In this document: positions 24,005 through 63,097 of the stretch, in pieces
Position numbering within the stretch: position 1 is the stretch's first letter
Layout: the number at the start of each line of letters is the position of its first letter
Program-made: the position numbers and the translations under genes
The notes under the pieces: generated by a model
What the model was told of the DNA's origin: nothing
Database searches by the model: none
The model's input: only the letters and a program-made list of their open reading frames with translations
Source of the DNA: Hymenobacter canadensis
GTDB taxonomy: Bacteria; Bacteroidota; Bacteroidia; Cytophagales; Hymenobacteraceae
Assembly (NCBI RefSeq): GCF_027359925.1
Contig: NZ_CP114768.1
Span: 124,001-188,000 of the forward strand
Direction of reading: 5' to 3'
DNA length: 64,000 bases

Positions 24005-24044
24005 AATGCTCCTTCTCGGCCTCTGAACCACCGGTTTCTTAAAC
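24005..24044 (+). repeat. Cassette repeat 1 (first recognised copy)
   Basis: Intermediate form: AATGCTCCTTCTCG at the 5' side, GAACCACCGGTTTCTTAAAC at the 3' side. Marks the left end of the recognisable array. Confidence 0.6.
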
Positions 24045-24157
24045 TCTCGAAGAGGACACCGTTCTTTGACCAAAGGCTACTACTGCAACCTCACCCTTGA
24101 TTGGTATCGGGGCGGAGGCAATCATCGTGGTACTGGTTACCCCTATTCTCATCGCGT

Positions 24158-25093
24158 ATGTGGTACTTGAAACTGTGGGCCGTGTTCTGCACCCTACTGT
24201 TCCTTTCTTTAATTTCCGGCATCGCGAGAGCAGGTGCCGCCGGTGCCCCCCCGCTACCCGTTCGATATGTGCTGCTGCAGGATTCCTCGTTCCACGCCAC
24301 GTGGGTTCAAACAGAACGGCGGGTACGGGGCGCTCATCAGGCGTTGGACATCGTCAACATTCTGGTGCCCGAGTTCCGCATTCGCTATCTAACCCAACAC
24401 GACCGGGGCGACCTTCGGGTGCGACTGGCACGAGAAGACGAATTACTGATTACCATGGCCGTGTTACCCGAGCTACAATCCGGCCGCGTGCAGTGGGTCC
24501 GTATCCGTTTGGATACTCTGGACCCAACCTGCAAGTTGTCTATGCGGGCGCTGGTCGCTGAGGGCTATGAGAAACTAATCGCCTACCGCCGCGCCGGCAA
24601 CCCCTACATGAATTACGAAACCCGGCGCGACGACGTCAAACCCGTCGTATACCGAGATGGCCAGTATTGGACGACGCCCGATGATGTGCTGACGGAAGTG
24701 TACGTAGTGCATTCCCGGCGAACCTGGTACCCCACTGAGGCCGATAACGTGACCCTCAACCCGCAGGCCCGGGTGTTCACGCGCGCCGACATTCAGCGGG
24801 ACATGCAGGCGGCCCAGACGGCCGGGGGCGAAGAGGCTCCTGAGTTGGGCTTAGTGCTCTCCTCCAAGCTGTTACTCGGCAAACGGACAGCCGCCCGTTA
24901 TGAGTTTTGGTCGTTTGCGCCGCCCATTGTCGATGCGTCGCTCACTTACTACGGGGCTACTGAAGTCGCGTACGAGCCTGGAACCGGCATTGTAAGTGCC
25001 AAATACAACGAGTATTTTCATCTGTCAGCGATATCGCCGGACAACGTTTTTTTCACGGTCAAACAGCGCATTAAATTACCCAGCGTTCCATGA
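24158..25093 (+). CDS. Hypothetical secreted or membrane-anchored protein
   Basis: A 311-residue protein counted from ATG 24158, which opens a signal-type hydrophobic segment (MWYLKLWAVFCTLLFLSLIS). The frame is open from GTG 24101, but that extension is not signal-like. The rest is soluble, with no recognised family and no lipobox. It is the first cassette gene of the array and ends 20 bp before a repeat. Confidence 0.7.
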   Translation: MWYLKLWAVFCTLLFLSLISGIARAGAAGAPPLPVRYVLLQDSSFHATWVQTERRVRGAHQALDIVNILVPEFRIRYLTQHDRGDLRVRLAREDELLITMAVLPELQSGRVQWVRIRLDTLDPTCKLSMRALVAEGYEKLIAYRRAGNPYMNYETRRDDVKPVVYRDGQYWTTPDDVLTEVYVVHSRRTWYPTEADNVTLNPQARVFTRADIQRDMQAAQTAGGEEAPELGLVLSSKLLLGKRTAARYEFWSFAPPIVDASLTYYGATEVAYEPGTGIVSAKYNEYFHLSAISPDNVFFTVKQRIKLPSVP

Positions 25094-25112
25094 TCTGACG
25101 CACATAGCAGGC

Positions 25113-25149
25113 AAAAGCTCGTTTCGCTTTTCGAACCCTTTGGCTAAAC
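25113..25149 (+). repeat. Cassette repeat 2
   Basis: Short form: AAAAGCTCG ... CGAACCCTTTGGCTAAAC. Its last part, GCTAAACGACAAGG, is shared with the repeat at 44507, which precedes the second copy of the same cassette. Confidence 0.85.
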
Positions 25150-25167
25150 GACAAGGGGAAGAGCTTT

Positions 25168-25455
25168 CTACTGATTGTAGCTCCACGCGGTGACGCTGTC
25201 GTGGTCCAGAAACACGCGCAGGTCATCGGGAGCACCCAGCCCCATCTCGTAATGCAGTACTGGTGGATAAGGCGCCTCCGGCCAGGCATAGGTCGTGTCC
25301 GGCACACCAAGCAGTGCGGTTACTTCGACGCGTGACATGCCCGCCTTGACCTGGGGAAGTTTGGAGTATATGTGATTGGCTCGGTCGAAGACCAACGCAT
25401 ACAGCCCGTACCCGAGCGCAGCCAGCAGAAGGAAACCAATGAATAGTTTTTTCAT
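25168..25455 (-). CDS. BamE/SmpA-like small anchored protein, copy 1
   Basis: A 95-residue protein with one N-terminal membrane or uncleaved signal segment (KLFIGFLLLAALGYGLYAL). The body has GMSRVEVTALLGVPD, the motif of SmpA/BamE-like domains that sit in the envelope. It lies antisense to the direction of its flanking repeats. A copy with five residue changes is at 44578-44865. The homology covers the whole unit between repeats, which marks it as one mobile cassette. A role in outer-membrane assembly is not implied for such short variants. Confidence 0.7.
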   Translation of the reverse strand: MKKLFIGFLLLAALGYGLYALVFDRANHIYSKLPQVKAGMSRVEVTALLGVPDTTYAWPEAPYPPVLHYEMGLGAPDDLRVFLDHDSVTAWSYNQ

Positions 25456-25468
25456 CAGATGAGCAAAG

Positions 25469-25505
25469 TACCGCTCGATTCGCTAATCGAACCGTTTGCG
25501 CGAAC
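25469..25505 (+). repeat. Cassette repeat 3
   Basis: Short form: TACCGCTCGATTCGCTAATC, then GAACCGTTTGCGCGAAC. The centre CGATT-CGCT-AATCG is a perfect small hairpin. Almost the same 5' part occurs at 44879, but the sequences separate after ACCG. Confidence 0.88.
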
Positions 25506-25543
25506 GTCTCACTACCTTTTATTTTGATCGGCCTTGTCTTCTA

Positions 25544-26176
25544 ATGAGCTCCCTTATGACCTGTCGAAATCTACTGGTATTCGTGGGAGCCAGCCTGTGC
25601 ATGGCGGGGTGTACTGAGCACACCCCGCCCATTTCTTATCCCCCCGCCGTGGTGCAGGCGGGTGAAGCACAACGCTACCAAACGGCTCTGTGGAGCGTGT
25701 CCACCAGTTTCTTGGATAGCACCGTGTTTTGGCAGCCCCCTGGGGACTCGGTGTGGCGCACACTCGAAGGGCTGGTAAGCCTCGAGCAGCGTTTGGTCGC
25801 GTTCGAACGCGGGGCCGGTTCGACGCGCTTCGAGTTTGAACTCGTCGAGCGGCCAGGGGGCTCGCGATTGCGACTATGGGGAAATTGCATGCGCTACGGC
25901 CCGCCCGGAAGAGGCTTCCAACCCTTGGTGGCGGTGTGGGTCAACCAGCGTGACGGACTGATTGACTCCGTCTTAACCATCCACAACGTGCGCTTTACGG
26001 GCGTCGGACGGAAGGTTAATGAGAAGGGCGATTGGGTGCCCATGAACCGCCGTGAAGCCCGGCTGCTGCAGTTCCATACTGATTCCCCCTTCAAACGGGC
26101 GTTCCTGAGGGCTCACCATGCCAAACTGCCCCTCAGCCTACAGCGGCTCTGCTACGAAAAAGGCATTCTAAAATGA
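25544..26176 (+). CDS. Hypothetical lipoprotein
   Basis: About 210 residues from ATG 25544, with a lipoprotein signal ending in GASLCMAGC. ATG 25556 is an alternative; the open frame from 25496 starts inside the preceding repeat and is not used. The mature part has no recognised domain. Its stop overlaps the next repeat at 26175, the usual arrangement for a gene running with the repeats. Confidence 0.75.
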   Translation: MSSLMTCRNLLVFVGASLCMAGCTEHTPPISYPPAVVQAGEAQRYQTALWSVSTSFLDSTVFWQPPGDSVWRTLEGLVSLEQRLVAFERGAGSTRFEFELVERPGGSRLRLWGNCMRYGPPGRGFQPLVAVWVNQRDGLIDSVLTIHNVRFTGVGRKVNEKGDWVPMNRREARLLQFHTDSPFKRAFLRAHHAKLPLSLQRLCYEKGILK

Positions 26177-26210
26177 CGTTCCATTTGCTTGAATCACCGT
26201 TTACTTAAAC
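26175..26210 (+). repeat. Cassette repeat 4
   Basis: Short form, partly degenerate: GACGTTCCATTTGC ... AATCACCGTTTACTTAAAC. It overlaps the stop of the preceding lipoprotein gene. Confidence 0.75.
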
Positions 26211-26294
26211 CCATTAACTTCCTTTGTGCTTACGGCTCGCTTTGACGCGACTGCTACTCACGATCACGAGCTTTCCATCAAGGGGCACTTAGGC

Positions 26295-27371
26295 ATGAGA
26301 TTTTTCCAAACGCTGAGTGGCCTCTTATGCTGGTGTTGGTTGGCCGCCTGCTCTCCCACTTCTCAGACCGTCGATGACAACCGCCAGCATGTCCAGCTGC
26401 TATGGCGCAACAAGACCTATGACTGGATCAGCAACTCGCTGCTCATACGCGATAGTCTGCTCTATTTCGGCAGCTTCCACCACGCCTTTTACGCCGTGGA
26501 TCTGGCCACTGGCCACGTCAAATTCGCCTACCAAACCGGGGACACTCCCTACTACCCCCCCACCGTTGTCGAGGATAAAATTTACTTCTCCAGCTTTGAT
26601 CTCCAGGTCTATTGCTTAGGGTCAGCAGGCAATTTAGTATGGAAGCGAAACACGGGTAATCGCGTCAAGAACGGACTGCTGGCGCGCGATAGCTTGCTCT
26701 TTATCCCCGTACGAGGGGATGGATTGTGGGCCGTCAAAACGCATGATGGCGCAGCCTTTTGACACTTAGCAGCTGGGGCCGGCAGCCGCTCTACGAATCA
26801 GCCCCTGCTACGTGGGAATAAGCTCTACGTCGGCATGTGGGGCCTTTCTGACAGCCTAATCGCGGTGGATGCCACGAGTGGGAAAATAGACTGGGCGACG
26901 CGTTTTCCCGGCTACGCCAGTTCAGACCCGGTCGCCACACCCCACGGGCTTTTGGTATGCAACGACAAATACTATCAGGGGGGTAAAGTCAAGTTACTCC
27001 GGTATGCAGACGGCACCGAATTGTGGAGTACCGACTTGAAGTGCCAGGCGTTGTATCCACCGCTGGTGCAGGGCAACCAAGTGATCGTGGCCACCTATGA
27101 CGCTCGGGTTGTCTGTCTCAGCATCCTTACGGGCGAAGTGCTGTGGAGCACCCAATTAGGCCCCGAAGAGCAGGTCGCTAGTCAATTCTGCCGCCTTAAG
27201 CAGGGCATTTATTTTGGGACCACCGCTCGCAACCTGTATTGCGTGGATAGTAAGACGGGCAAAGCGGTGTTCAAGGAGTCGTTTAACTACGGCATCTCTG
27301 ATCTACTCGTAGCCAACGGCCAGCTCTATATTCCCACTGGGGGCAGCGAGCTTTGGACCCTAAAAGAGTAG
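26295..27371 (+). pseudogene. PQQ-repeat beta-propeller lipoprotein with an in-frame TGA
   Basis: A signal with lipobox (LLCWCWLAAC) starts at ATG 26295. Repeats such as FYAVDLATGHVKFAYQTGD, LIAVDATSGKIDWATRFPG and VVCLSILTGEVLWSTQLG are typical PQQ-like propeller blades. TGA at 26760-26762 stops the frame after DGAAF. The same frame resumes at HLAAGAGSRS and runs on as good propeller sequence to 27371. One transition would restore about 358 codons. As TGA ends other genes here, this is a nonsense mutation and not recoding. Confidence 0.75.
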
Positions 27372-27382
27372 GATTGTACCGT

Positions 27383-27428
27383 TAACGACTCTCGTTTAAA
27401 GGATGCCCGAGCCACCGTTTTCCTAAAC
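27383..27428 (+). repeat. Cassette repeat 5
   Basis: TAACGACTCTCGTTTAAAGG ... GAGCCACCGTTTTCCTAAAC. 12 bp after the stop of the propeller gene. Confidence 0.8.
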
Positions 27429-27437
27429 GTCTGTCAC

Positions 27438-27755
27438 CTATTGCCGGCGTATCCTGGTCGAGCTGGGATATTCCGGCGAAGGCAGGGTAACGAGGTGAGC
27501 GGGCGTGAGCAGCAAGCGGGTGGGCATTCCCTGAAGCGCGCCGTCCAGGTATGTGAGGCGGATGGTATCGCCCTGTATGGTGTAACGCCCGTCGTGGTAG
27601 CCCAGGCCCATTTCCACTTCACACTCCCCATTGGTGAAGAGGCGAACGGTATACGAGCCAACAACTAGGTCTTCGAAGGCTGAATACCGCAGCGTTCTGC
27701 TTTCGCAGCCATTGAGTAGCAGGGTCGCTGACAGGACTAGCATGGAAACTCTCAT
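27438..27755 (-). CDS. Small hypothetical lipoprotein
   Basis: 105 residues with a lipoprotein signal ending LLLNGC, so anchored in the envelope. The mature part is a short beta-rich domain (VVGSYTVRLFTNGECEVEMG, then RYTIQGDTIRLTY). No family recognised. It runs against the repeats, its stop lying 10 bp from repeat 5. CTACTTTTAGCAC directly before the start resembles the local -7 box. Confidence 0.7.
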   Translation of the reverse strand: MRVSMLVLSATLLLNGCESRTLRYSAFEDLVVGSYTVRLFTNGECEVEMGLGYHDGRYTIQGDTIRLTYLDGALQGMPTRLLLTPAHLVTLPSPEYPSSTRIRRQ

Positions 27756-27767
27756 GTGCTAAAAGTA

Positions 27768-27804
27768 GAACGCTCGTTCACCTTTGGATCGTTTTGCTGA
27801 ATTC
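27768..27804 (+). repeat. Cassette repeat 6
   Basis: Short form: GAACGCTCGTTCACC ... GGATCGTTTTGCTGAATTC. Confidence 0.85.
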
Positions 27805-27963
27805 AGTGTGGGTGAAAATTGGCTATGCCAACTAAGGATAGTTATAAATTAACCCTTTGCACTGAGGTTATATCAAATTTGCTGCTGTATCTTTATATTC
27901 GGCCCTTTCCCAATTGCTTTGTTCATTCGGCCCAATCAAGGGTCTAATCCCTCGCTGTCACTC

Positions 27964-28428
27964 ATGTTCCACGCCTACTTTTTCCGGTCCTTGCTATTTG
28001 CTGTGTTCACCTCCCTAACGGTGAGCTGCGGCGGGGAACAAAAAGAGCAGGACCCGGCGCCCGTAACCCACACCGTGCTCGTGGAGTATTTCGCTGATCA
28101 AGTGCCCAGCAGCCTCGGCGCTACGGTGAGCAGTCGTAGCACGCTGCCCGATGGCACTCAACCCGATAATATCCACGAAGTGACGGCCATCTCCGGCAAT
28201 CGGGTTGGCTCTTACACCGCCAACGTGGTCGAGGGGCGGGATTTTACCGTTACTGCATCCTACCGGACTCTGGGGACAGCTGGGTTGCCGTATCCTTATG
28301 ACGCCAATTTTCGGGTTCAAATCTGGGTTGACGGAAAGGTGCGGCGCAATATCGGCGTGACGGGCGTTGTCTCCCCGGGCAATACGTACCCGAGCATCAG
28401 CTATGTAGTCCGTTCCACCGAGTGGTGA
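27964..28428 (+). CDS. Hypothetical lipoprotein
   Basis: 154 residues from ATG 27964 with lipobox SLTVSC. The mature part is rich in Thr, Val and Gly and probably all-beta; no family recognised. ATG 27964 is chosen because the upstream extension is not signal-like. It ends 10 bp before a degenerate repeat. Confidence 0.7.
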   Translation: MFHAYFFRSLLFAVFTSLTVSCGGEQKEQDPAPVTHTVLVEYFADQVPSSLGATVSSRSTLPDGTQPDNIHEVTAISGNRVGSYTANVVEGRDFTVTASYRTLGTAGLPYPYDANFRVQIWVDGKVRRNIGVTGVVSPGNTYPSISYVVRSTEW

Positions 28429-28437
28429 GCACTTACC

Positions 28438-28476
28438 TGATGCTTCGTTGCCATTCCGACGGTTTTTAGACTGACC
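28438..28476 (+). repeat. Cassette repeat 7 (degenerate)
   Basis: TGATGCTTCGTTGCC ... ATTCCGACGGTTTTTAGAC. Layout of the short form with an altered core (ACGG for ACCG). Confidence 0.5.
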
Positions 28477-28523
28477 GAAACGTGACGACCATAGCTGTCG
28501 CAGAACTCCCAGCACTGGATCAA
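28477..28523. other. Gene-less unit with an IS-end-like sequence
   Basis: Only 47 bp separate repeats 7 and 8. GACCATAGCTGTCGCAGAACTC at 28487-28508, split as GACCATAGCTG and TCGCAGAACTC, resembles the left end of the IS1182-type element at 37286 (TGGCTGTTGCAGAACTC). It may be a leftover of an IS excision or deletion. Confidence 0.45.
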
Positions 28524-28576
28524 ATTGCTCCTTATTTCGAACAGAGCTCGTTCAGGCCAGTACCGTTCTGATAAAC
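28524..28576 (+). repeat. Cassette repeat 8 (long form)
   Basis: ATTGCTCCTTATTTCGAAC ... CAGTACCGTTCTGATAAAC. The centre AGCTCGTTCAGGCCAGTACC is identical to the reverse repeat at 59274. Confidence 0.85.
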
Positions 28577-28628
28577 TCTTTGAGTAATTTTGCCAGCAAA
28601 AGTCTGCTCCCCCTTATAGCTCTGCCTG

Positions 28629-28970
28629 GTGTTTCGAGACGTTTCTTCCCCTAAAGGCCGAATTGGGCGCTTAGAGTACGGCCTGAGCTACTTCGCTTAC
28701 CTAATCGTTTTGGTCGTCCTCCAACTCGTGTTTGGTCCCAACGAGAACGACAACCTTTTACTAGCCCTCTTCTACCTGGCGTCCTTTCTGCTGTGCTTGT
28801 GGTTCCTCGTGGCCCAGGGGGCCAAGCGGTGCCACGACCGCGGCAATAGCGGCTGGTACCAATTCATCCCTTTTTACGTGTTCTGGATGCTTTTTGCGGC
28901 GGGGGATAGCGGGGACAATGCTTATGGCCCCAACCCGAAAGCAGCTGCCCCAGCGGGAGAACGTAAGTAA
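28629..28970 (+). CDS. DUF805 family membrane protein
   Basis: 113 residues, three membrane segments. DUF805 signatures are clear: GRIGRLEYGLSYFAYL at the N-terminus, GAKRCHDRGNSGWYQFIPF in the middle and NAYGPNPK at the end. These are small inner-membrane proteins of unknown function found in many bacteria. The GTG start at 28629 is used because the next Met lies inside the domain. The stop is 7 bp before the next repeat. Confidence 0.88.
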   Translation: MFRDVSSPKGRIGRLEYGLSYFAYLIVLVVLQLVFGPNENDNLLLALFYLASFLLCLWFLVAQGAKRCHDRGNSGWYQFIPFYVFWMLFAAGDSGDNAYGPNPKAAAPAGERK

Positions 28971-28976
28971 GCCCGC

Positions 28977-29030
28977 TTAATTTCGAGCGCCCCTTCACGG
29001 CCGGATGTCCTTGGGACCGTTTAACTGTTC
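28977..29030 (+). repeat. Cassette repeat 9 (long form)
   Basis: TTAATTTCGAGCGCCCCTTC ... CTTGGGACCGTTTAACTG. Follows the DUF805 stop by 7 bp. Confidence 0.75.
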
Positions 29031-29116
29031 AGGCGCTTTCTGGTGGCACGGTTGACGCGTGATTGCCGCACTCACTCGGGACCGTCGTTTGTACGGGTGG
29101 AGGGCCTTCCCGGCGC

Positions 29117-29791
29117 TTACTCGATGCGGAGGTTGTAGACGACAAAGTGCGCAATCTTATATTTGGCGTACCAGTCTTTTACCGGCACGTTGCTCTGGGC
29201 CAGCGCGCAGTACAGCAGGTACCCGTCCGATTCGTAGGGCAGCGTGTACACCAAAAACGGCACCTTCTGGCCCACGGGAAACTTTCGGTCGGCCGTGACC
29301 TGCTGCCCCGGCGTGCGCACCAACGCGGGGCGTACCTTGTAAGGCCAGAGGTCGGTGCGCAGGCTGTAGCGGTCGCCCTGACCCGGCAGGGCAACAAACG
29401 ACTTGACGGTGGCGCCGGCGGCGAACAGGAACTGGTTTTCCAGCCGGGTGTCGGTGGCCTGCCGCGCGAAAACGTCCATCGCAAAGTGCCCCTGCGGGTC
29501 GCAGCGCAGCAGCCGCGCCGGGTTACCGACCAATTCCTTTTCGGCCTCTGCCACGCCGTTTCGGTACTCTTGGTAAGTGAGGTGAAAGAGCTTGCCTGCC
29601 AGCTGCGCTTGTACCGCTTCGACGTGCCACTTCTCCACGTGCAACGCCTGGCTCATCAGTTGGTGCAACTCAGGGTTATCGGAGCCGGCGTGCACCAACA
29701 CCACCACGCTGTCCACTCGGGCCGAAACGCTTTGGGCCGTAGCCGGCAAGCCCAGGCACACCGAGAACAGCAGAAACAGGCTTGTTTTCAT
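29117..29791 (-). CDS. Hypothetical secreted protein
   Basis: 224 residues with a cleavable signal peptide (MKTSLFLLFSVCLGLPATAQ). No family recognised; the mature part is mixed alpha/beta. It runs against the repeats. The cassette is about 0.9 kb and the space between its stop and repeat 9 is 86 bp. Confidence 0.75.
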   Translation of the reverse strand: MKTSLFLLFSVCLGLPATAQSVSARVDSVVVLVHAGSDNPELHQLMSQALHVEKWHVEAVQAQLAGKLFHLTYQEYRNGVAEAEKELVGNPARLLRCDPQGHFAMDVFARQATDTRLENQFLFAAGATVKSFVALPGQGDRYSLRTDLWPYKVRPALVRTPGQQVTADRKFPVGQKVPFLVYTLPYESDGYLLYCALAQSNVPVKDWYAKYKIAHFVVYNLRIE

Positions 29792-29920
29792 AAGACAGCA
29801 AAAGACAGCAAACGCGAGGGATAGGGCAAGGTAAGGCGCCGCGGGGCATCTGCCACGTTGCGGCGTCCGAAAAGGCCGCCCGACCCGCGCTTCGCACCGC
29901 GAGTTGCGAACGGCTCAAGC

Positions 29921-29974
29921 AATGCCCCTATTTTTAAACAGGCATCCGTTTAAGGCACGACCGTTTTCTTGAAC
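29921..29974 (+). repeat. Cassette repeat 10 (long form)
   Basis: AATGCCCCTATTTTTAAAC ... GCACGACCGTTTTCTTGAAC. Confidence 0.82.
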
Positions 29975-29988
29975 TGCGCAATGCTGTT

Positions 29989-30438
29989 TTAGGGTGTTGT
30001 TTCGTTTGGCTCGGCGTATGCGTCTCGGCATTCCCGCTCCAGCTTGTTCCATTCCTTCTGTGAGATTTTGTACGCGCTGAGCGGAGTGGCCAGTTCACAG
30101 CGGGAAGCACAAGCATAAAAGTTCGGATTGAACAGTTCCATATTGCATTGGCCCCCTTCGTAGTACACGTGCGTAAACAGCACGCTCTGTTCCACTCCCG
30201 CGGCCCGAAGGGCAGGGTAATGGGCGTCCAACACAGCAATGAACCACTGTAGGTGGTTGTCCGCGTTGGGATTCGTTGAGAAGGGTTGGGCGGGTAACAC
30301 CTCCAGGTAGGGCGTCGCATGCTCGTTGTTATCCGCGCCCCATTCAACCACGGCACCCATGGCTTTCAATCCTGCCACGAAAGGTTCGGGCGCAAACGCC
30401 TGCCCATAAAACGTCAACGTAAATCGGAAGAGAACCAT
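29989..30438 (-). CDS. Hypothetical cytoplasmic protein (immunity-like size)
   Basis: 149 residues from ATG 30438 (MVLFRFTLTFYGQAFAPEPF). The longer open frame runs through a repeat and is not used. No signal peptide. Features such as EWGADNNEHATPYLEVL and HLQWFIAVLDAH resemble small soluble immunity-type proteins, but no family is named. The stop is 15 bp from repeat 10. Confidence 0.65.
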   Translation of the reverse strand: MVLFRFTLTFYGQAFAPEPFVAGLKAMGAVVEWGADNNEHATPYLEVLPAQPFSTNPNADNHLQWFIAVLDAHYPALRAAGVEQSVLFTHVYYEGGQCNMELFNPNFYACASRCELATPLSAYKISQKEWNKLERECRDAYAEPNETTP

Positions 30439-30478
30439 CAAGGGGCGACCTAGAGCTGTATTCAGTGTCCACGTAAAG

Positions 30479-30531
30479 TAACCCTCCTTAAACTGAGCTG
30501 CCCTGTTTACCTGGCCACCGTTTTCGCAAAC
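30479..30531 (+). repeat. Cassette repeat 11 (long form)
   Basis: TAACCCTCCTTAAACTGAGC ... CTGGCCACCGTTTTCGCAAAC. Confidence 0.87.
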
Positions 30532-30590
30532 GCAGATTCGGCAACCGAAAAACAGGAGATTTGCCAATCGAACGGCGTGCGTCATCCCAG

Positions 30591-31052
30591 CTACTCCGCT
30601 CCGTAATCGCCGTTGAGGCATTTGACCATTTTCAACGGCACTTCCACCAACTCGTCCTTGGCGTTGTATGTCCAAGCCCGTTGGATGCCACTCAAGTGTT
30701 CCCCCGGCTGCTTAAGCGAAATGAGGACGAAATAGCTTCTGCGTTTGCCGCTGGGGTCGGTACACGTCGTAATCGAGAGGGCCTGCTTGGCGCTGTTCAC
30801 CTTCACGCGGACGGTGTCGACAATCCGATTGGCGGGCTGCCCCTTTTCCTTATTGGCTAGTTGTTCATAGGCCAACACGGCCGTGCCGTTTCGGCAGCTG
30901 CTTTGGGTAAGCGCATAGCAAGTAAGCCCCTTGTCGGTTCCGTCAATCACGGCTCCGGCACACAAGAAGTGGCCTTTCAAGGAGATTGGGGGAGGAGGGG
31001 CAGAGAAGCCTCCCGCCAGCAAGACCACCACGAGCAACAGTAGATTTTTCAT
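30591..31052 (-). CDS. Hypothetical secreted protein with Cys pairs
   Basis: 153 residues with a signal peptide (MKNLLLLVVVLLAGGFSAPP). The mature part has six Cys (for example HFLCAGAVIDG, LTCYALTQSSC, ITTCTDPSGK), suggesting disulfides in the periplasm or outside. No family recognised. Runs against the repeats. Confidence 0.72.
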   Translation of the reverse strand: MKNLLLLVVVLLAGGFSAPPPPISLKGHFLCAGAVIDGTDKGLTCYALTQSSCRNGTAVLAYEQLANKEKGQPANRIVDTVRVKVNSAKQALSITTCTDPSGKRRSYFVLISLKQPGEHLSGIQRAWTYNAKDELVEVPLKMVKCLNGDYGAE

Positions 31053-55702: not shown

Positions 55703-55709
55703 GATTAGG

Positions 55710-56359: not shown

Positions 56360-56450
56360 ACATCACTAGTGCTTGGATTGGTCTATTTCGTAGCTTGCTC
56401 GCACAAATAAGCGGAATACCCCGCTTTGCTTACCCCATACTCCGGCAAGG

Positions 56451-56762
56451 ATGGAAACGCTGACTTGGCTGCAAGACTGGTACCGGGCCCGGTGCGATGG
56501 GGAATGGGAATTCCGTGAAGGCATCAAGCTGCTTTCCACGAGCAACCCGGGCTGGAGCGTGGAAATCAACGTGTCGGATACCCCTTTAGAGGACGCATAC
56601 CTTCCCTTGACTAAGTTCGACCGGTCGGAGAGTGATTGGTACGGCTACTTCCTGGAAGACGCCTTGTTTGTCGGCTCCGGCGACCCGGCAAAGCTGGAAG
56701 TCATTTTGCGTGTGTTTCGCAACCTGATAGAAAACGGCATCCCTTCGCCATCCAACGCCTAA
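56451..56762 (+). CDS. Immunity protein 53 (Imm53) family
   Basis: 103 residues. TWLQDWYRARCDGEWEFREG, then NPGWSVEINVSDTPLEDA and SDWYGYFLEDALFVGSGDP match the Imm53 pattern closely (WY..QCDG.WE, NPGW, DW....V.D..F.G.GDP). These proteins neutralise nuclease or deaminase-type tips of polymorphic toxins; the partner is not in the window. It is the clearest named immunity gene in the array. Its stop (TAA 56760) lies inside the repeat. Confidence 0.88.
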   Translation: METLTWLQDWYRARCDGEWEFREGIKLLSTSNPGWSVEINVSDTPLEDAYLPLTKFDRSESDWYGYFLEDALFVGSGDPAKLEVILRVFRNLIENGIPSPSNA

Positions 56763-56793
56763 ACGCTCGTTTACCTCTCGACCGTTCAAGTAA
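56760..56793 (+). repeat. Cassette repeat 47 (last forward copy)
   Basis: Short form: TAAACGCTCGTTTACCTC, then TCGACCGTTCAAGTAATGC. It contains the Imm53 stop. Confidence 0.87.
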
Positions 56794-56884
56794 TGCTACG
56801 GAGTTCTGTTACCTCTTCTATAGGAATACTATAAGCGGGTGAATGGCTGCTTTACAAGCTGGAATTCAACAGTACTCAACCCTA

Positions 56885-57631
56885 TTAGGGAACGAGTACT
56901 TGATATGACGAGGCGCCTAAATAGTCCATTTTGTACTGCATGCTCACCTTGGCTAAGCTCAAGTTCGTGTGGTGCCCATCGATGGTGTGGTAGTTCAACT
57001 CAACAAAGCCATAAGTAGGATGATACAAGAAATCTACGTTAGAGCTACCGGCCGCCGAATGCGCTTGAGCCCGCACAAGCCAGCAGCGTAGCTGGCCCAT
57101 TGGGGTATGAACGGTTTGCTGCCCTACCACGTGGTAGTAGCTTTGCACGACGATGTCACCTGGCCATGTGCCCCAGTTCGGATGGCCCCACTGACTGCCC
57201 ACCGTTAGATTCCACGTCCACCTCTGCCCTTCTGTCACCGGCAATTTGATGTAAGGATAGGGGCTGAGTTGCAAGATCGCGTACGAACCCTCGCGGGGCG
57301 GGTGAGCCCAGAGCATGGTGTCATTCTCAATGACGCCGGCAAAGTTGCCTGGGACCGAATGCCCATCGTAGCTAAACCCAATCTTGATTTGCGTAGTAAC
57401 GGGGTCATATTCCCCCGGTTTGAAATCGCCAAAGCTCGTCAGCATAAGACTATCCAAGCCGCCCGTCTGATGGACGTCATGCGCGACTGTATAGGTTAGT
57501 TGGCGGCCTTTGCGGAAGATTTTCTCCGGCGGGGAGGTGGGCAGAGCAGGCGATTGGCAAGCGGCGAGCCCAAGGGCTGCCCCGCAAAAAGCCCCGCGAA
57601 TCTTTTGGGTAGAGAGAAAAGTCACGCGCAT
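56885..57631 (-). CDS. Hypothetical lipoprotein
   Basis: 248 residues with a lipobox (GAALGLAAC) after a slightly long signal. Beta-rich mature part (GRQLTYTVAHDVHQTGGLDS, WTWNLTVGSQWGHPNWGTWP). No family recognised. It is the last gene of the forward-repeat block and runs against the repeats. Confidence 0.7.
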   Translation of the reverse strand: MRVTFLSTQKIRGAFCGAALGLAACQSPALPTSPPEKIFRKGRQLTYTVAHDVHQTGGLDSLMLTSFGDFKPGEYDPVTTQIKIGFSYDGHSVPGNFAGVIENDTMLWAHPPREGSYAILQLSPYPYIKLPVTEGQRWTWNLTVGSQWGHPNWGTWPGDIVVQSYYHVVGQQTVHTPMGQLRCWLVRAQAHSAAGSSNVDFLYHPTYGFVELNYHTIDGHHTNLSLAKVSMQYKMDYLGASSYQVLVP

Positions 57632-58016
57632 CGATAGATTGAATAAAGGCCACTACGTGTCCACAAGTGCGGAAAAGTACCGCGCTGGGCGACGCAGCGC
57701 AACCAGCCGGAAACTACCACTATTCTGAGGTAGTGTGTATAAATAGACTTATGTAAAGGAACAAAAGCCAGGTAAAGAGCGGACTTTCTAGAGCTGCCTA
57801 GCTGCAGGAAAGCTCTGTTTGCTTAGGCCCGGGAAAGGCGTCTGTTTCGAGTTTACGAAACTCATCTCTTCAGGGCATTTCGTAAACTTTGAATCGTAGA
57901 CGAGTTTCTTAAACTCACCAGGCACTGCAGCGGCATGCTGGCACCTGGTGCTGGCCTGCTGCTAGGTGTTCAGGGAAAGGAGCGTTCTGGGTGTACGACA
58001 GCGTTGTTTAACTACC
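57632..58016. other. Junction where repeat direction changes; palindrome cluster
   Basis: No gene. GAGTTTACGAAACTC (57849-57863), ATTTCGTAAACTTTG (57878-57892) and GAGTTTCTTAAACTC (57902-57916) are related near-palindromes within 68 bp. No normal cassette repeat is recognised here, although one would be expected between the flanking genes. Confidence 0.6.
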
Positions 58017-58718
58017 TCAGCGGTTAATAGCGAATTGTATCAGCTCCCACGTCTGGTTGTTGGTATACACAATCTTGGTGAGGCCGATTCGGCGGCTACG
58101 GTAGACGTGGCGTACCCAGTTGAATTGGGTGGAATCGACGCGGGGGCCATAATCGGGCACCAGGTGGACTGACTGCCGGAAGGTGCCGGCCGGCGTTGTA
58201 ACGGCAACCGTATCCACAACCTGAAGGACATTCAGCAACTTTTGCCCCACCCGAATAGGATAGCCAAATCCGACCTCTAGTGGGTAAATCGTGCGGATAT
58301 CGTCTGTTTGACTAAGTACCCAGTCCTCCCGATAAAATGCAGGATGGGAAGACAAGAACTCATTGCCAAACGGATTTGTGCCTGGCTGACCCGTTCCTGG
58401 AAAGTAGATCCGGTTGGAATGCGTTAAGGTGGCGGAATACCCCTGTACGCACGCTGCGCGGGGATCTCCTGCTTGACTTTGGGTTACGTGGCCTTCTTCA
58501 GCTAACGTGACCCGCACCGTATCATAGACGAGAGGCGAAGACCCGCGTAATCGGTACACCCACTGGCTGCCCTGTGGAAAATACCAATAGTCGAGAAAGG
58601 CAGGGGGAGCTTGAGTGAGTTGGGGGCACTCGGTCACAGCCGTGTTTTTTTTACAACTAGTGGCCCCCATCAGAATGCTTAGAAAGAGTAACCATCGAAA
58701 TCCTGCTGTATGAATCAT
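58017..58718 (-). CDS. Hypothetical lipoprotein
   Basis: 233 residues with a lipobox (ILMGATSC). The mature part opens with AFLDYWYFPQGSQWVYRLRG, a start often seen in Bacteroidota lipoproteins of unknown role, and ends with ordinary beta sequence. It lies between the palindrome cluster and the first reverse repeat. Confidence 0.72.
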   Translation of the reverse strand: MIHTAGFRWLLFLSILMGATSCKKNTAVTECPQLTQAPPAFLDYWYFPQGSQWVYRLRGSSPLVYDTVRVTLAEEGHVTQSQAGDPRAACVQGYSATLTHSNRIYFPGTGQPGTNPFGNEFLSSHPAFYREDWVLSQTDDIRTIYPLEVGFGYPIRVGQKLLNVLQVVDTVAVTTPAGTFRQSVHLVPDYGPRVDSTQFNWVRHVYRSRRIGLTKIVYTNNQTWELIQFAINR

Positions 58719-58760
58719 TAGGCGTGTATTGATAAGATAAGTTGGTCTTGTTACTTAATA

Positions 58761-58795
58761 TACAGAAACGGTCCTAATGGCAAATAGAGCGTTAA
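58761..58795 (-). repeat. Cassette repeat 48 (first reverse copy)
   Basis: On the minus strand: TTAACGCTCTATTTGCC ... ATTAGGACCGTTTCTGTA. The direction is opposite to all copies at 24-56.8 kb. Confidence 0.85.
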
Positions 58796-58839
58796 AATAG
58801 TTGAATTGGTCAGCCAGGTTCCGGGACTGGGGGGGGCTG

Positions 58840-59235
58840 TCAATAAGGGGGAGTAGCTAGCCCTAAGGGAGGATTGTTTTTGCACCAGTTAAGCGTTTCA
58901 ATACCTGCTGGGCTTAGGTATTTGGTTGCCTCCCGGTAATAGTACTTGCCGTTGTGGGCCAAGGACTCGATGATGCAATCGTACGTTACCTGCTCGAGGT
59001 ATTCGTCAGGAGACTCAATGAGCCAGTTGACAAATGAAAAGTACCGGGTCAGTTCGTCTTGGTTGCCCTCGTCCATCAGTTTCCGTATCCGATAGGCAAA
59101 CTCGTTAAACACGCCATACAAGGAATGGTCGACGGGGTCGGCTAAGTAGTCGCGGAACTCTGCGCTGTACGCGGTGAACTCGGGCAGGATTGTGTGCAAT
59201 TCACTCCCCAACGTCTGTATGTTGAGTTGGCTCAT
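58840..59235 (-). CDS. Hypothetical cytoplasmic protein (immunity-like)
   Basis: 131 residues, helical and acidic. ELTRYFSFVNWLIESPDEYL, EQVTYDCIIESLAHNGKYYY resembles small immunity-type helical proteins (possibly DUF7674-like; uncertain). No signal peptide. Runs with the reverse repeats. Confidence 0.62.
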   Translation of the reverse strand: MSQLNIQTLGSELHTILPEFTAYSAEFRDYLADPVDHSLYGVFNEFAYRIRKLMDEGNQDELTRYFSFVNWLIESPDEYLEQVTYDCIIESLAHNGKYYYREATKYLSPAGIETLNWCKNNPPLGLATPPY

Positions 59236-59273
59236 CGTGGGCTGGGAAAAATAGAGACGGTGCTACATGTCCC

Positions 59274-59326
59274 GTTCAGCAAAACGGTACTGGCCTGAAC
59301 GAGCTTTGTTTGAAGTAAGGAGGGAT
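59274..59326 (-). repeat. Cassette repeat 49 (reverse, long form)
   Basis: On the minus strand: ATCCCTCCTTACTTCAAAC ... CAGTACCGTTTTGCTGAAC. The centre equals that of repeat 8 on the forward side. Confidence 0.92.
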
Positions 59327-59388
59327 CTACTATCCACTACATGGCTTATATTTTCGTTAATGGGATACGTCTAATGATGGCAGCAGCA

Positions 59389-60216
59389 ATGAAGAGATGG
59401 GAGCGCTTGGTATTCATGATAGTTGTGTTTCCAGGAATCGTTTCCTGCAACTCCTCGCCGACATTCCGGACGTACGTGCCTGGGGAATCATCAGGGGCTT
59501 ATATTGATTTAGAACTACGGAACGTCGGGTGGACGAGGCCGACGCAGCAAATCGATGTCACCTATTGTTCTCCCCAGGGGCTATTTTCCGGAGATAACTG
59601 TCAACTGATTGGGCGCTATACCATAAGGGCTACTGAGCCGTTTTTTCACGACCTCCACTTAGCCGCGGAGTGGCAGGGCACGCAACGGGTACTTATCCGC
59701 AACACCTGCGAAGACCGCCGCCCCTTTGAAGCCCCACCTCTGGTCATTAATGTCGGGACGTTACAATTGGAGGGAGACATTAATCACCACAATATGTTGG
59801 ATGTAAGCGCTTTGAACCAGCCTTCCACTCCGCAGGCAACGTCTCCCGAGGCCCCGCCAGTAGAAGACGAGACCTACGCTTACGTGGAAGACAAGTCCTA
59901 CACCTACGTGGAAGAAATGCCGGTTCTCCCGGGCGAGCGTGGGGGCGAAAGCAGGCAAGCAGGCCCTGCAACGCTCGGCCCCGCCATTGGGCGTCGGCTG
60001 GTGCTGCCCCGCGAGGCCAAAAAAGGGGTCGTGCAGCTGCATTTGGTGGTGGGCAAAGCGGGGGACGTACGCCACCTGCGCATCAAAAAGAGCTTGGACG
60101 CCGCAACCGATTCGGCCGTGCTCGCGGCGGCGCGGCAACTCCCCCGCCTCGTTCCCGGCAAGCAGAGTGGGCAGCCTGTGAGCGTCGAGTTTACCGTGCC
60201 CGTTTATATTGATTGA
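59389..60216 (+). CDS. TonB C-terminal-domain lipoprotein
   Basis: 275 residues from ATG 59389 (MKRWERLVFMIVVFPGIVSC), so a lipoprotein; the open frame from 59341 adds 16 residues. A variable middle has two repeats of YVEDKSYTYVEE-like sequence. The end is TonB-like: VVQLHLVVGKAGDVRHLRIK, DSAVLAAARQLPRLVPGKQS and PVSVEFTVPVYID. It is the only gene in the reverse block that runs against its repeats. Confidence 0.75.
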   Translation: MKRWERLVFMIVVFPGIVSCNSSPTFRTYVPGESSGAYIDLELRNVGWTRPTQQIDVTYCSPQGLFSGDNCQLIGRYTIRATEPFFHDLHLAAEWQGTQRVLIRNTCEDRRPFEAPPLVINVGTLQLEGDINHHNMLDVSALNQPSTPQATSPEAPPVEDETYAYVEDKSYTYVEEMPVLPGERGGESRQAGPATLGPAIGRRLVLPREAKKGVVQLHLVVGKAGDVRHLRIKKSLDAATDSAVLAAARQLPRLVPGKQSGQPVSVEFTVPVYID

Positions 60217-60356
60217 GCCAGCAAAATCAACAGCGCAACAGGCACAGGAGCTAAGCAATAGGGCGTAAAGCTGAAATGGTGTAGGGCTTTTTTCGTCAGA
60301 TGCCCCGCCCGGTCATGCCTGCGGCACCGTAACGTTGAACTACTTGGAGTTCAGGA

Positions 60357-60394
60357 GTTCACTCAAACGGTCCAAAAAGCGAAACCAAGGGTTA
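60357..60394 (-). repeat. Cassette repeat 50 (reverse)
   Basis: On the minus strand: TAACCCTTGGTTTCGC ... TTTGGACCGTTTGAGTGAAC. Its 5' end overlaps the stop of the next gene. Confidence 0.87.
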
Positions 60395-60577
60395 AATGCT
60401 TCTCTTTCGCTTCAAATGCCAGTAGATCAGAATAACAACAGCAAAAGCTGCCACGGAAGTAAAAAAAACTACTGCTGCCCGATGGATGGACTGCTCGTGG
60501 TTGTGACCTAAAAATATATATGTGAGCCCAGTAAGCAGCAGCGTTAGCGTGAACCAGGTGAATGAAATGTATCTCAT
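60392..60577 (-). CDS. Very small membrane protein
   Basis: 61 residues, two hydrophobic segments (about 5-23 and 34-54) and a basic tail (WHLKRKRSI). It fills its own cassette and its stop lies within the repeat. No family recognised. Confidence 0.6.
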   Translation of the reverse strand: MRYISFTWFTLTLLLTGLTYIFLGHNHEQSIHRAAVVFFTSVAAFAVVILIYWHLKRKRSI

Positions 60578-60604
60578 AAGAACCCTGAACGAGCTTGATT
60601 AGCT

Positions 60605-60657
60605 ATTCAGCCAAAGGGGGCCAAGGTAGACGCGCTACGTTCAAAGTAAGGAGGTCA
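60605..60657 (-). repeat. Cassette repeat 51 (reverse, long form)
   Basis: On the minus strand: TGACCTCCTTACTTTGAAC ... GGCCCCCTTTGGCTGAAT. The centre GTAG-CGCGT-CTAC can pair. Confidence 0.85.
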
Positions 60658-60660
60658 CTC

Positions 60661-60999
60661 TTAAACGTTTGGTTTCTTTCGTCTAGCCCACATGAGGAGC
60701 GCGGCGGAAACCGTAGTTAAGAAGGGTGCTAGCCCGATGACCCAATTTACCAAGACCATGTTCATGCGATAAGGCAACCCATTCGCCCAGTAAGTGGCCA
60801 CCGCCAAGGTAACCAGGTAAACGGCCACCAAGACCGCCTTTTCGGCATACGGCACCGGCACAGCCAGCACCCCCACCAAGAAGAGTAACAGCGACCCTGC
60901 CAGGAGAAAGACGGTTGTCAGCACTTCTTCCCCGTGCGCAAAGGCCCATGTGGGCAGGAGCAAGAAAAGCAACAGCAGGCCCGTGGTTCGCTGGTTCAT
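60661..60999 (-). CDS. Small membrane protein, unknown function
   Basis: 112 residues with four hydrophobic segments and a basic end (MWARRKKPNV). The first may act as a signal. No family recognised. TAGCTTTG lies 4 nt before the start. Confidence 0.68.
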   Translation of the reverse strand: MNQRTTGLLLLFLLLPTWAFAHGEEVLTTVFLLAGSLLLFLVGVLAVPVPYAEKAVLVAVYLVTLAVATYWANGLPYRMNMVLVNWVIGLAPFLTTVSAALLMWARRKKPNV

Positions 61000-61003
61000 G
61001 AAT

Positions 61004-61011
61004 CAAAGCTA
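61004..61011 (-). promoter_or_regulatory. -7 box before a small membrane-protein gene
   Basis: On the minus strand TAGCTTTG fits TAnnTTTG and lies 4 nt before ATG 60999; near-leaderless start. Confidence 0.5.
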
Positions 61012-61037
61012 GGACAGCGTGTTTACGCGAAGGTCAA

Positions 61038-61072
61038 GTACAAGAAAACGGTGGTTCAGGGAAAGGAGCCTA
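61038..61072 (-). repeat. Cassette repeat 52 (reverse)
   Basis: On the minus strand: TAGGCTCCTTTCCCTGAAC, then CACCGTTTTCTTGTAC. Similar to repeat 1. Confidence 0.8.
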
Positions 61073-61363
61073 CTTTCTGAACATTTCTCTCACATTGGCC
61101 GCCAGCAGTAGCAATGCGAAAACGAACGAGCAAACACCCACGGAGTGGTCGTACGCTTCATGTGACTCGAACAGCATGAAGGAAAGCAGAACGGTAGCCG
61201 CCGTGGGGAGCAGGAACAGGAATAAAAATACGGGCTTCCTTTTGTTGAAATAGAGCAGGGTAAACAACAGTTCAAGGGCCGCTAGGACAAGGCAGGGGGC
61301 GATAACAATAAATTGAAAGAAGCCAGAGTAGTCGGGATCGAGCAGTAAAGTGCTGAGGGGCAT
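61070..61363 (-). CDS. Small membrane protein, unknown function
   Basis: 97 residues with three hydrophobic segments (about 14-38, 44-66, 75-92). FLLPTAATVLLSFMLFESHE joins two of them. No family recognised. Stop inside the repeat. Confidence 0.68.
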   Translation of the reverse strand: MPLSTLLLDPDYSGFFQFIVIAPCLVLAALELLFTLLYFNKRKPVFLFLFLLPTAATVLLSFMLFESHEAYDHSVGVCSFVFALLLLAANVREMFRK

Positions 61364-61486
61364 GCTAACTTGACTGAAGTAGGTTGTGGATGAGCGATAA
61401 AGCTACAGTAGGCAATGAGCGAATACACCCAATGTAGCCAGGCTCACGGCTTATTCTGGTAGAGGGCGATTAAAGTAACTATCGTC

Positions 61487-61535
61487 TTCAGATAAGGTGG
61501 CAAGCTAAACGCAGCCCGTTCAAAATTAGGAGGGA
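61487..61535 (-). repeat. Cassette repeat 53 (reverse, long form)
   Basis: On the minus strand: ATCCCTCCTAATTTTGAAC ... CTTGCCACCTTATCTGAAGA. The centre GCT-GCGTTT-AGC can pair. Confidence 0.78.
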
Positions 61536-61985
61536 TTATTGCAGCAGCGGATACAGGCGTTCCTCGGCGTCGGCGGGGGCCAATTCAAAGCCGTAGACGC
61601 CCATTTCGGTATGGTACTCCGCGCAGAGGCGGTCCATCACGGCTTCGGCTAGGGCTTGATTGGATTTGCCAGCCGCTGTTTCGTCCTCAACGGACAAGCC
61701 GAGCAAAAGGCGTCCTTGGTGGCCGAAATACACCATCACGTGGGTGTAGAGGGGTTGCTGGCTGGTAAAGTACAGCGCAAAGTTTCGATTCGGGTCCGCC
61801 AGCCCATAGACCAGCGTGGCGGACAAGCTCCCGGTGGCCACCGTGTCGCCCACGTCCGTGACAAACACTTCGTAGTCCTGCCGCAGTCGGTCGGTGGAAA
61901 GGTCGGCGTAGTGCGCCAGGAACCGCTCAAGGCACGCGGTGCTGCGGTCGGCGGTGGCGACGTAAATGTCCAGGCAAGGCGGCAT
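61536..61985 (-). CDS. Hypothetical cytoplasmic protein (immunity-like)
   Basis: 149 residues, no signal peptide. SATLVYGLADPNRNFALYFT and THVMVYFGHQGRLLLGLSVE give a beta sheet, followed by a helix and an acidic end. No family recognised. The stop adjoins the repeat. Confidence 0.66.
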   Translation of the reverse strand: MPPCLDIYVATADRSTACLERFLAHYADLSTDRLRQDYEVFVTDVGDTVATGSLSATLVYGLADPNRNFALYFTSQQPLYTHVMVYFGHQGRLLLGLSVEDETAAGKSNQALAEAVMDRLCAEYHTEMGVYGFELAPADAEERLYPLLQ

Positions 61986-62013
61986 GGCAACAAGAACAGC
62001 AGGAAATCGGAGT

Positions 62014-62066
62014 GTTCAGTGAAAGGGTACTGCCGTAAACGCGTTCTGTGGGGAGAAAGCAGTTAA
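62014..62066 (-). repeat. Cassette repeat 54 (reverse, long form)
   Basis: On the minus strand: TAACTGCTTTCTCCCCAC ... CAGTACCCTTTCACTGAAC. The 5' part is the same as repeat 15. Confidence 0.87.
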
Positions 62067-62071
62067 CAGAA

Positions 62072-62572
62072 CTACTCGACCACTTCCTCCTCGCTCATAT
62101 ATAGCTCGGCAGCATCCCTTTTGTAAAGCGTTAAGAATTCGGTGAAACTAGTGGCTACTTGCTGATACTTGTCACCACAGAGTACGAACACAGGATTAGC
62201 CGAAAAGGCCTGCGCGTCTAGCCGAATGGCATAGGCCAAGAGGTGAATCATGTAGTCGGCAACTACATAGAACTGCTTGTGCTCGGGCCACGTGCGCATC
62301 AAGTCGCTGTACTTGGGCAGCCCATGGTAGTCGTCAAACCGCTCGGCCACCGACTGAACTTCGGCCAGCGAGTAAAAGCGAAAGAAGCGCTCATCGTACG
62401 CATGTGCGGTGCCGTTGACCAAGGTGAAGTAGCGGACCAACTCCGCGGGCAGCTGGACGTGGTACCTCTGGGCAAAACGAGTCAATTCGGCTTCGGAAGC
62501 CGTTTGTAAGGCAATGGTGCCGCCTTGTTGCCATTGCTGCTGCGCCCACAACAACTCATCTGACTGGTCCAT
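62072..62572 (-). CDS. SMI1/KNR4 (SUKH) family protein, copy 2
   Basis: 166 residues, identical to the protein at 32360-32860. The identity includes the leader and tail of the cassette and even the antisense frame, so the DNA is the same or nearly so. The cassette faces the other way on the chromosome, but its direction relative to its own repeats is the same. This suggests recent re-insertion of one cassette or an inversion of part of the array. Confidence 0.87.
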   Translation of the reverse strand: MDQSDELLWAQQQWQQGGTIALQTASEAELTRFAQRYHVQLPAELVRYFTLVNGTAHAYDERFFRFYSLAEVQSVAERFDDYHGLPKYSDLMRTWPEHKQFYVVADYMIHLLAYAIRLDAQAFSANPVFVLCGDKYQQVATSFTEFLTLYKRDAAELYMSEEEVVE

Positions 62573-62666
62573 CGGGGAAGCGGTAAAGGGTACGCTGGCA
62601 AAGCTATTCGTTTTTGCTCGGGCCCGATCCATAACCGGGCGGCATGCCATGCTTAGGACGATGTGG

Positions 62667-62702
62667 TCCAAGAAAACGGTCTGATTCGCCAAAACGAGCA
62701 TT
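62667..62702 (-). repeat. Cassette repeat 55 (reverse)
   Basis: On the minus strand: AATGCTCGTTTTGGCG ... AATCAGACCGTTTTCTTGGAC. From GACCGTTT on it matches repeat 14. Confidence 0.93.
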
Positions 62703-62736
62703 TGCTTGTTAGTACCCAGTCGTTGCTTGATTCATA

Positions 62737-63045
62737 CTAATTATTGCGGTTTTGAAGTAAATAGTATCCCTTTACGAGTAACAGGAACAGAAAAAAGGCA
62801 GCGACACAGGGGATTATCCACATTAAAGAAGCAATGGCAATTGCGACCAGAATCGGACTATAATAACTCAGTATGCTTTCCGTATTGGAGTGAGGTGATC
62901 CGTCCGTTAAGAATATGCTCCCCGCAAGCAGTACAAGCAATATGGCCAGCAAGAGGGCAGTTCTGCGTAAGGTTCGGTTAATGCGCTGTTCTTGCAACAT
63001 ACTGGCAAGGGTGTATAGGGTGTTGTCAAGTTTTAAGCCTCCCAA
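62737..63045 (-). CDS. Small membrane protein, unknown function
   Basis: 102 residues with two membrane segments (about 29-46 and 65-93) after a charged N-terminus (SMLQEQRINRTLRR). No family recognised. The AT content is above that of neighbours. About 35 bp separate its stop from repeat 55. Confidence 0.66.
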   Translation of the reverse strand: MGGLKLDNTLYTLASMLQEQRINRTLRRTALLLAILLVLLAGSIFLTDGSPHSNTESILSYYSPILVAIAIASLMWIIPCVAAFFLFLLLVKGYYLLQNRNN

Positions 63046-63058
63046 CTATAGCCAAGAC

Positions 63059-63097
63059 GTTCACCCAAACGGTCGGATTCGCCAAAACGAGCCGTTA
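63059..63097 (-). repeat. Cassette repeat 56 (last copy in the window)
   Basis: On the minus strand: TAACGGCTCGTTTTGGCG ... AATCCGACCGTTTGGGTGAAC. It overlaps the stop of the T9SS-domain fragment. Confidence 0.93.

Follow-up and report, generated by a model that had tools for sequence, protein, structure and literature searches.

Arrays of mobile gene cassettes with short sites resembling resolvase site I in Hymenobacter

Two facing arms of small gene units

One of the smaller replicons of Hymenobacter canadensis carries a long array of small gene units separated by short repeats. The genome comprises four contigs (C1, 4,532,152 bp; C2, 377,776 bp; C3, 143,069 bp; C4, 38,680 bp), and the stretch analysed here, referred to as the window, covers bases 124,001-188,000 of C2 (NZ_CP114768.1), 64,000 nucleotides in all. 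An initial annotation had placed the array in a chromosome; it lies on the 377,776-bp replicon and not on the 4.53-Mb chromosome. The repeats themselves, about 55 by that account, are real. A position matrix trained on 43 repeats from the window array detects 50 sites between 23,900 and 63,200 and none in positions 1-23,900, the same threshold yielding 0.1 per 22 kb in shuffled sequence; 48 sites are found at a matrix threshold of 12 and 51 by eye (44 forward, 7 reverse). They form two arms that face each other, the forward sites running from 24,030 to 56,781 and the reverse ones from 63,073 to 58,772 (Table 1). The right half of the forward-arm site reads C(G/C)TTTNNNT(G/A)AAC, with the dinucleotide AC in front.

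Most units hold one small gene, as had been proposed. An open reading frame (ORF) of at least 60 amino acids (aa), taken mechanically as the longest in the unit, is present in 93 of the 96 units from five loci of this genome; the median unit measures 604 bp and the median ORF 155 aa. Site direction is constant within an arm and the ORFs occupy both strands, 57 of the 93 running along the site (24 along and 18 against in the window). The stop codon lies 10-136 nt 5' of the conserved ACC in 53 of these 57 site-parallel ORFs, with a median of 40. A scan of 100 ORFs from the arrays of this genome, including some overlapping ORFs and some genes of insertion sequences (IS), matched 36 Pfam families, mostly once. 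Among the 25 of these 36 families shown, SUKH was found in four ORFs and the TonB C-terminus in two; Imm53, a HigB-like protein, the YhcG nuclease, an ADP-ribosylglycohydrolase and several domains of unknown function (DUFs) were found in one ORF each.

Similar arrays occur elsewhere in the genome and in the genus. A second model, R1, was built from the same 43 window sites and locates two arrays on C2 (array 1, in the window, and array 2), a single one on C3 and another, short, on C4. The chromosome accounts for two of the 99 own-genome matches listed at E<=10, both weak, and one of the two is the start of a single-cassette unit of the terminal element T described below. Although the matrix was trained on the window array, both it and R1 also detect arrays beyond the window, on further replicons as well as in further genomes. 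R1 matches at E<=0.01 were obtained in 46 of 149 genomes, H. canadensis included; all belong to Hymenobacter, one of the 46 genera covered, and no array match was found outside it in this set. A stringent site pattern run over species genomes gave 46 stretches, all 46 named Hymenobacter.

Table 1. Features of the window (positions counted from its first base)
Feature	Position	Strand	Remarks
Forward arm, 40 sites (threshold 12), units mostly with one small gene	24030..56795	+	position matrix
Reverse arm, 8 sites (threshold 12), pointing at the forward arm	58758..63100	-	position matrix
Array centre, two ORFs (248 and 233 aa, without Pfam match) flanking T	56885..58718	-	
T core AACG-CT-CCTTTCCCTGAAC, site-I-like, centre CT	57968..57986	-	
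T accessory block, half-sites GTTTAAGAAAC, GTTTACGAAA and inverted TTTCGTAAAC	57849..57916	-	same block 5' of the SerT gene elsewhere
Cassette	25135..25497	+	second copy 44,546-44,908 (95%), neighbours differ
Cassette	32251..32897	+	second copy in reverse arm, 62,681-62,035 (99.8%), neighbours and joint sequence differ
IS element, DDE transposase of 497 aa, beside central dinucleotide of a site	37284..38902	-	AC on both sides
Repeated insert of 853 bp inside a cassette	49268..50120	+	100% copy in C3 locus L012

Mobile cassettes and their boundaries

Movement of the units is apparent from copies in different surroundings. One window cassette is present twice, on opposite strands and between other neighbours, the copies being 99.8% identical over 647 bp. 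Further stretches, some of them IS copies, are common to the arrays of this genome at 93-100%, and the 853-bp insert of one window cassette is missing from the array-2 copy of the same cassette. Beyond this genome, a cassette of about 95% identity was found on a plasmid of H. yonginensis and another on a plasmid of H. swuensis.

The points of exchange were mapped on a set of 402 distinct cassettes, which gave 31 pairs of at least 90% identity (25 families), of which 27 carry information on the 5' break and 27 on the 3' break. At the 5' end, the pooled likelihood puts the break at positions 0-8 of ACC(G/C)TTTNN. In the 16 informative pairs listed individually, every cassette begins at the ACC block and none retains the upstream joint. 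At the 3' end, 17 of the 27 pairs match up to the same block, keep the joint sequence J and break at positions 0-7 of ACC(G/C)TTTN. In the other 10, J, which lies between AACGCTC and ACC, has been swapped for another; six of these break at or a few bases from AACG-CT, two read alike, one breaks at GTTTAC and one is unclear. J exists in a short version (similar to CTCGTTTTGGCGAATCCG) and a long one (similar to CTCCTTACTTTGAACAGCGCGCGTTTACCTTCGG), and either can be seen with one and the same cassette.

Cassettes of nearly the same sequence thus turn up between unrelated neighbours, with breaks that fall within the site. The repeats therefore bound mobile cassettes, and these comparisons of sequence show the array to be composed of mobile gene cassettes that exchange at short sites. 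The interpretation as gene cassettes made in the initial annotation is borne out. Two observations that might have spoken against it turned out otherwise: where sites stand apart from arrays, a gene and T are linked to them, so they are not repeats scattered without linked genes, and the cassettes, far from being immobile, stand in different contexts.

Terminal element T and the recombinase SerT

That first description mentioned neither the convergence of the arms nor a terminal element, here called T, nor the serine recombinase behind T in array 2. T was recognised by comparing array centres. Read along the arm, it consists of AACG-CT-CCTTTNNNTGAAC, a spacer and a block with GTTTA(A/C)GAAAC, GTTTACGAAA and inverted TTTCGTAAAC. 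In the window it spans 57,849-57,986 on the reverse strand and has no adjacent recombinase gene; the 233-aa ORF beside it is the T-proximal cassette, which recurs at 94% in the T locus of C4. T lies at most 2.2 kb from the innermost site in 10 of the 21 arms whose inner end falls inside the fetched stretches. At least one T occupies six of eight convergent centres (window, array 2, L050, L055/L056, L064 and L126, the latter on H. swuensis pHsw1), and the centres of C3 and L057 have none. L050, from genome G003, has one T per arm, and in G042 and G083 inverted T pairs stand 336 bp apart, with recognised sites not on both sides. T was found in 64 of the 149 genomes (H. canadensis included), all of them Hymenobacter; its copy numbers are lower bounds because five candidates were scored per genome. 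The core pattern fits 63 of 73 distinct copies, all 63 with CT, while one has CA and nine do not fit. Judged by this layout of a core and accessory half-sites, T is built like the res site of a serine resolvase.

T may also accompany single genes. Nine T units whose closest sites lie no more than 3.5 kb away have lengths of 444-1,038 bp. A contig of 3,986 bp (L168, G025:C3) encodes a Mob_Pre relaxase and a T-unit cassette for a small multidrug resistance (SMR) protein; no recombinase was seen among its ORFs, and it is a tiny mobilisable replicon with a single T-unit cassette. For the T unit on the chromosome of H. canadensis, an empty site with joined flanks was found in none of 91 genomes at six candidates per genome, the other matches being short repeats. 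A repeat of about 100 bp lies 3' of T in several genomes (for example L157:8802-8900) and is also found without T, once outside the genus (G113). Directly before the T of L064, positions 15,560-15,640 hold gene-less tandem units, GTTCCGCTGAACCCTC and GTTATCTAATTCCGACC, which resemble very small cassettes.

SerT, a serine recombinase of 204 aa, is encoded in array 2 (C2:269,347-269,958) by a gene that begins 6 bp behind T. It matches PF00239 (E 1.5e-43), and its nearest relatives in the PDB are the DNA invertase 4m6f (E 3e-46) and gamma-delta resolvase. Relatives were sampled at 30 loci, one per genome, and at least five more matches of at least 85% identity lie outside this sample. In all 15 sampled relatives of at least 85% identity the T block stands 5-7 bp 5' of the gene, with core-like sequence further upstream. 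One relative of 81% has the block and no clear core, and the 14 at 73-80% are arranged similarly, though with different and in part mixed motifs such as TGTAC and GTACAG. Linkage of SerT and T is shown by this comparison of upstream regions. The distance from the core dinucleotide to the block is 77 bp in 12 of the 15 T copies with SerT behind them and 66-67 bp in 51 of the 58 without, a difference of one helical turn. Some T copies also have a serine recombinase of another subfamily a few kb away at most.

Genomes with a close SerT also tend to be those with arrays. Matches to array sites were found in 13 of 13 such genomes against 33 of 78 others (Fisher, 5e-5), or in 13 of 14 against 33 of 77 (P 4.5e-4) if a gene fragment in G066 is counted as a close SerT. 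Of the 14 array-rich genomes, that is, those with at least 10 R1 matches, seven have a close SerT.

The array sites and T share their main motif, the right half of the cassette site being that of the T core. Across array loci totalling 252,093 bases this motif was counted 175 times, preceded by AC in 163 cases, by CT in 12 and by nothing else, and it was counted once in 85,001 control bases. The two bases fall within the mapped crossover block. The full site-I-like dyad is seen at a SerT paralog on C4 (L014:8,940-9,101, equal to C4:28,940-29,101), in the form GTACAGCGAAACG-AA-CGTATTTCTGTAC with accessory sites and a half-site of the TGTAC type. In the register that this dyad sets, the putative central bases are AC for cassette sites and CT for T cores. 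When reversed, the core's right half (GTTCANNNAAA) resembles the accessory half-sites GTTTANGAAA, with a spacing one base longer. Arrays with a TGTAC-type right half were not found in array-like numbers, as each genome gave 0-12 matches, compared with 0-5 for a control in which the pattern was reversed.

The same centres appear to attract transposable elements. IS elements with the end TTCTGCAACAGCCACG are frequently inserted right beside the centre of a site (window 37,284-38,902; L010:2051-3669; L012:6630-8248; many other loci). Among 85 distinct IS ends, AC or GT comes next in 48 and CT or AG in 13, and five of the eight copies for which both ends are available show identical dinucleotides on the two sides, the window copy, with AC, among them. 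These elements appear to target res-like sites, a preference known from other transposons (PMC12217951; see also PMC7765201). At L159, L161 and L162 the same type of IS end also interrupts a second kind of AC-centred palindrome, approximately TTTTACATACTGCAAACG-AC-CGTTTNCAATACGTAAAA, which is possibly site I of another serine recombinase.

Just before the array start, positions 20,547-23,516 of the window encode a 315-aa RHS-repeat protein and a transposase of the IS3 family. On C4, a long, internally repeated protein with strong direct repeats is encoded (L013:18,550-20,000 and L014:26-5,653), with 1,875 aa in L014 alone.

Candidate mechanisms and known cassette systems

The arrays probably represent a cassette system of the res/resolvase type in which SerT carries out the exchange. 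Conservative recombination would exchange the cassettes at short sites that resemble res site I in structure, the fullest form being GTTCANNNAAACG-NN-CGTTTNNNTGAAC, where NN may be the central dinucleotide, AC where a cassette starts and CT both where it ends and in T. Each cassette would begin with the right half C(G/C)TTTNNNTGAAC and finish with (A)AACG, and the exchangeable joint J, about 15-35 bp, would lie between AACG-CT and AC-CGTTT. The arms would run toward T as a res-like platform, and SerT encoded in array 2 may act on array 1 in trans. Cassette movement is predicted to be mainly AC x AC, with J carried at the 3' end, and CT x CT exchange would replace J. From the sequences we infer binding and catalysis by SerT, this use of the dinucleotides, circular cassette intermediates and entry at T.

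A tyrosine recombinase acting in trans might move the cassettes in place of SerT, be it XerC/XerD, an L006-like plasmid enzyme or an integrase of the type found in integrative and conjugative elements (ICEs). ACC(G/C)TTT would then be its 7-bp overlap, and T the res site or operator of SerT, standing at array ends by chance. The conserved block does measure 7 bp and is covered by the mapped crossover, and integrons use a tyrosine recombinase according to parts of PMC9024848. XerC and XerD, as well as diverse ICE- or phage-type integrases (one single-linkage cluster), are present in all seven genomes compared, namely that of H. canadensis and six with T and without L006. This explanation is nevertheless unlikely. 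A conserved tyrosine recombinase had been anticipated at an array end, but none lies consistently close to arrays or to T, and the right half of the sites matches half-sites 5' of a serine recombinase gene. The L006-type plasmid enzyme occurs in 86 of 101 genomes of the genus and is absent at E<=1e-30 from the array-rich G003 and G069, so that it was rejected as a candidate. A gene common to the array flanks was also sought; the families found in at least three genomes are transposases, kinases and hypotheticals, with no shared recombinase.

Exchange without any dedicated enzyme, through homologous or illegitimate recombination between short repeats, would profit from the many repeats and from the 10 of 27 informative 3' ends whose break falls in another part of the site than the ACC block. 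Recombination across a 40-bp repeat should spread breaks to both sides, whereas 0 of 16 pairs keep the upstream joint at the 5' end, the pooled likelihood agreeing, and the dinucleotide is limited to 2 of 16; this makes such an origin improbable. Hardly any weight falls on an aberrant integron or a cluster of attC sites lacking an integrase (CALIN), with IntI encoded elsewhere and odd attC sites. Units of small genes of unknown function, a single direction per arm and the lack of a nearby recombinase gene are CALIN-like, but an integron integrase above the curated TIGR02249 cut-off was found in 0 of 149 genomes (below it, XerC/XerD-type matches occur in 149 of 149) and the single-strand folds of 39 sites are weak. 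The one attC-like candidate pairing tested, a mini-attC hairpin (AACG.TCC/GGA.CGTT) that appears in a few folds, showed no covariation, with 27 complementary cases against 27.7 expected at the 76 of 243 sites to which the search could be fitted, and was discarded.

Exchange by SerT at res-like sites has its own difficulties, which lower its probability. Crossover likelihood peaks at position 6 and is 3-4 log units lower at the proposed dinucleotide, in a mapping that resolves the block and not two single bases. A cassette would need to travel with J because its ends differ, AC versus CT. The left half of cassette sites is variable and often poor beside the strong right half, and the partly mixed motifs of the paralogs mean that core and accessory motifs do not strictly co-vary. 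No T is visible at 11 of the 21 inner arm ends. Seven of the 14 array-rich genomes are without a close SerT; G016, G021, G045 and G084 have a relative at 73-80%, and G005, G007 and G069 have none at E<=1e-40. The tyrosine enzymes in the seven compared genomes, mentioned above, add to these points, and classical resolvases act within one molecule and do not readily integrate, according to sections of PMC12217951. Confidence in the role of SerT is slightly reduced by its absence in close form from half of the array-rich genomes and by the weaker association once the G066 fragment is counted.

Among known systems, resolvase/res modules provide the parts. In Tn3-type elements, as described in parts of PMC12217951, resolvases have about 180-210 aa, res lies upstream of the gene, site I measures 28 bp in the case studied, sites I and II are helically phased and cleavage falls at the central 2 bp; Tn3-family transposons exchange gene modules at res site I (PMC7157771, in part). 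The 204-aa serine recombinase, the composite site before its gene, the site-I-like core and the putative 2-bp centre agree with such modules. Unlike them, dozens of tandem site-I-like sites bound single genes here, and most T copies and arrays have no adjoining recombinase gene.

The recombinase-associated immunity arrays (rAID) of Bacteroidales, whose defining parts in PMC12247911 are a tyrosine recombinase and orphan immunity genes that all point the same way, were another suggested relative. The resemblance lies in small-gene arrays of Bacteroidota with conserved intergenic motifs and a few immunity-like genes. Membership does not hold up, as the genes are not co-oriented, SUKH was found in 4 and Imm53 in 1 of 100 ORFs, and no tyrosine recombinase adjoins the window array: the window has no PF00589 match, the nearest being about 160 kb away on the same replicon. 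Serine DNA invertases and Xer/dif systems likewise exchange segments site-specifically between short sites. There is no sign here of the simple inversion of a segment that marks the former, and the array sites do not resemble dif, no dif site having been located.

Integrons are the textbook cassette system, with a tyrosine integrase and folded single strands. In the description of IntegronFinder 2.0 (PMC9024848), what is conserved in attC sites is their secondary structure, and a CALIN is a group of attC sites that lacks an integrase. The Hymenobacter arrays share with both the small cassettes, one direction per arm, a distinct platform site that closes the array, the occurrence of individual cassettes in varied contexts and many arrays without a nearby recombinase gene. 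They differ from integrons in having no IntI above the cut-off, no supported attC-like hairpin, two convergent arms and a res-shaped platform, and the repeat does not match the standard integron boxes, as had been noted. The system works like an integron, with cassettes, sites and a platform, yet fails both integron hallmarks tested. Neither arrays like these in Hymenobacter nor cassette arrays of serine recombinases were found described among open-licence PMC papers; the suspicion of an undescribed system is consistent with this, and the kind was rated as new because no earlier description was found. On balance, the evidence leans towards a genus-wide, independent counterpart of the integron, made up of a small serine recombinase, the res-like platform T, cassettes bounded by site-I half-sites and AC/CT classes that would set the permitted junctions. 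If true, it would account for much of the small-gene content of unknown function on Hymenobacter replicons, and it would be a second system with another recombinase family and another type of site, so that cassette shuffling would have arisen more than once.

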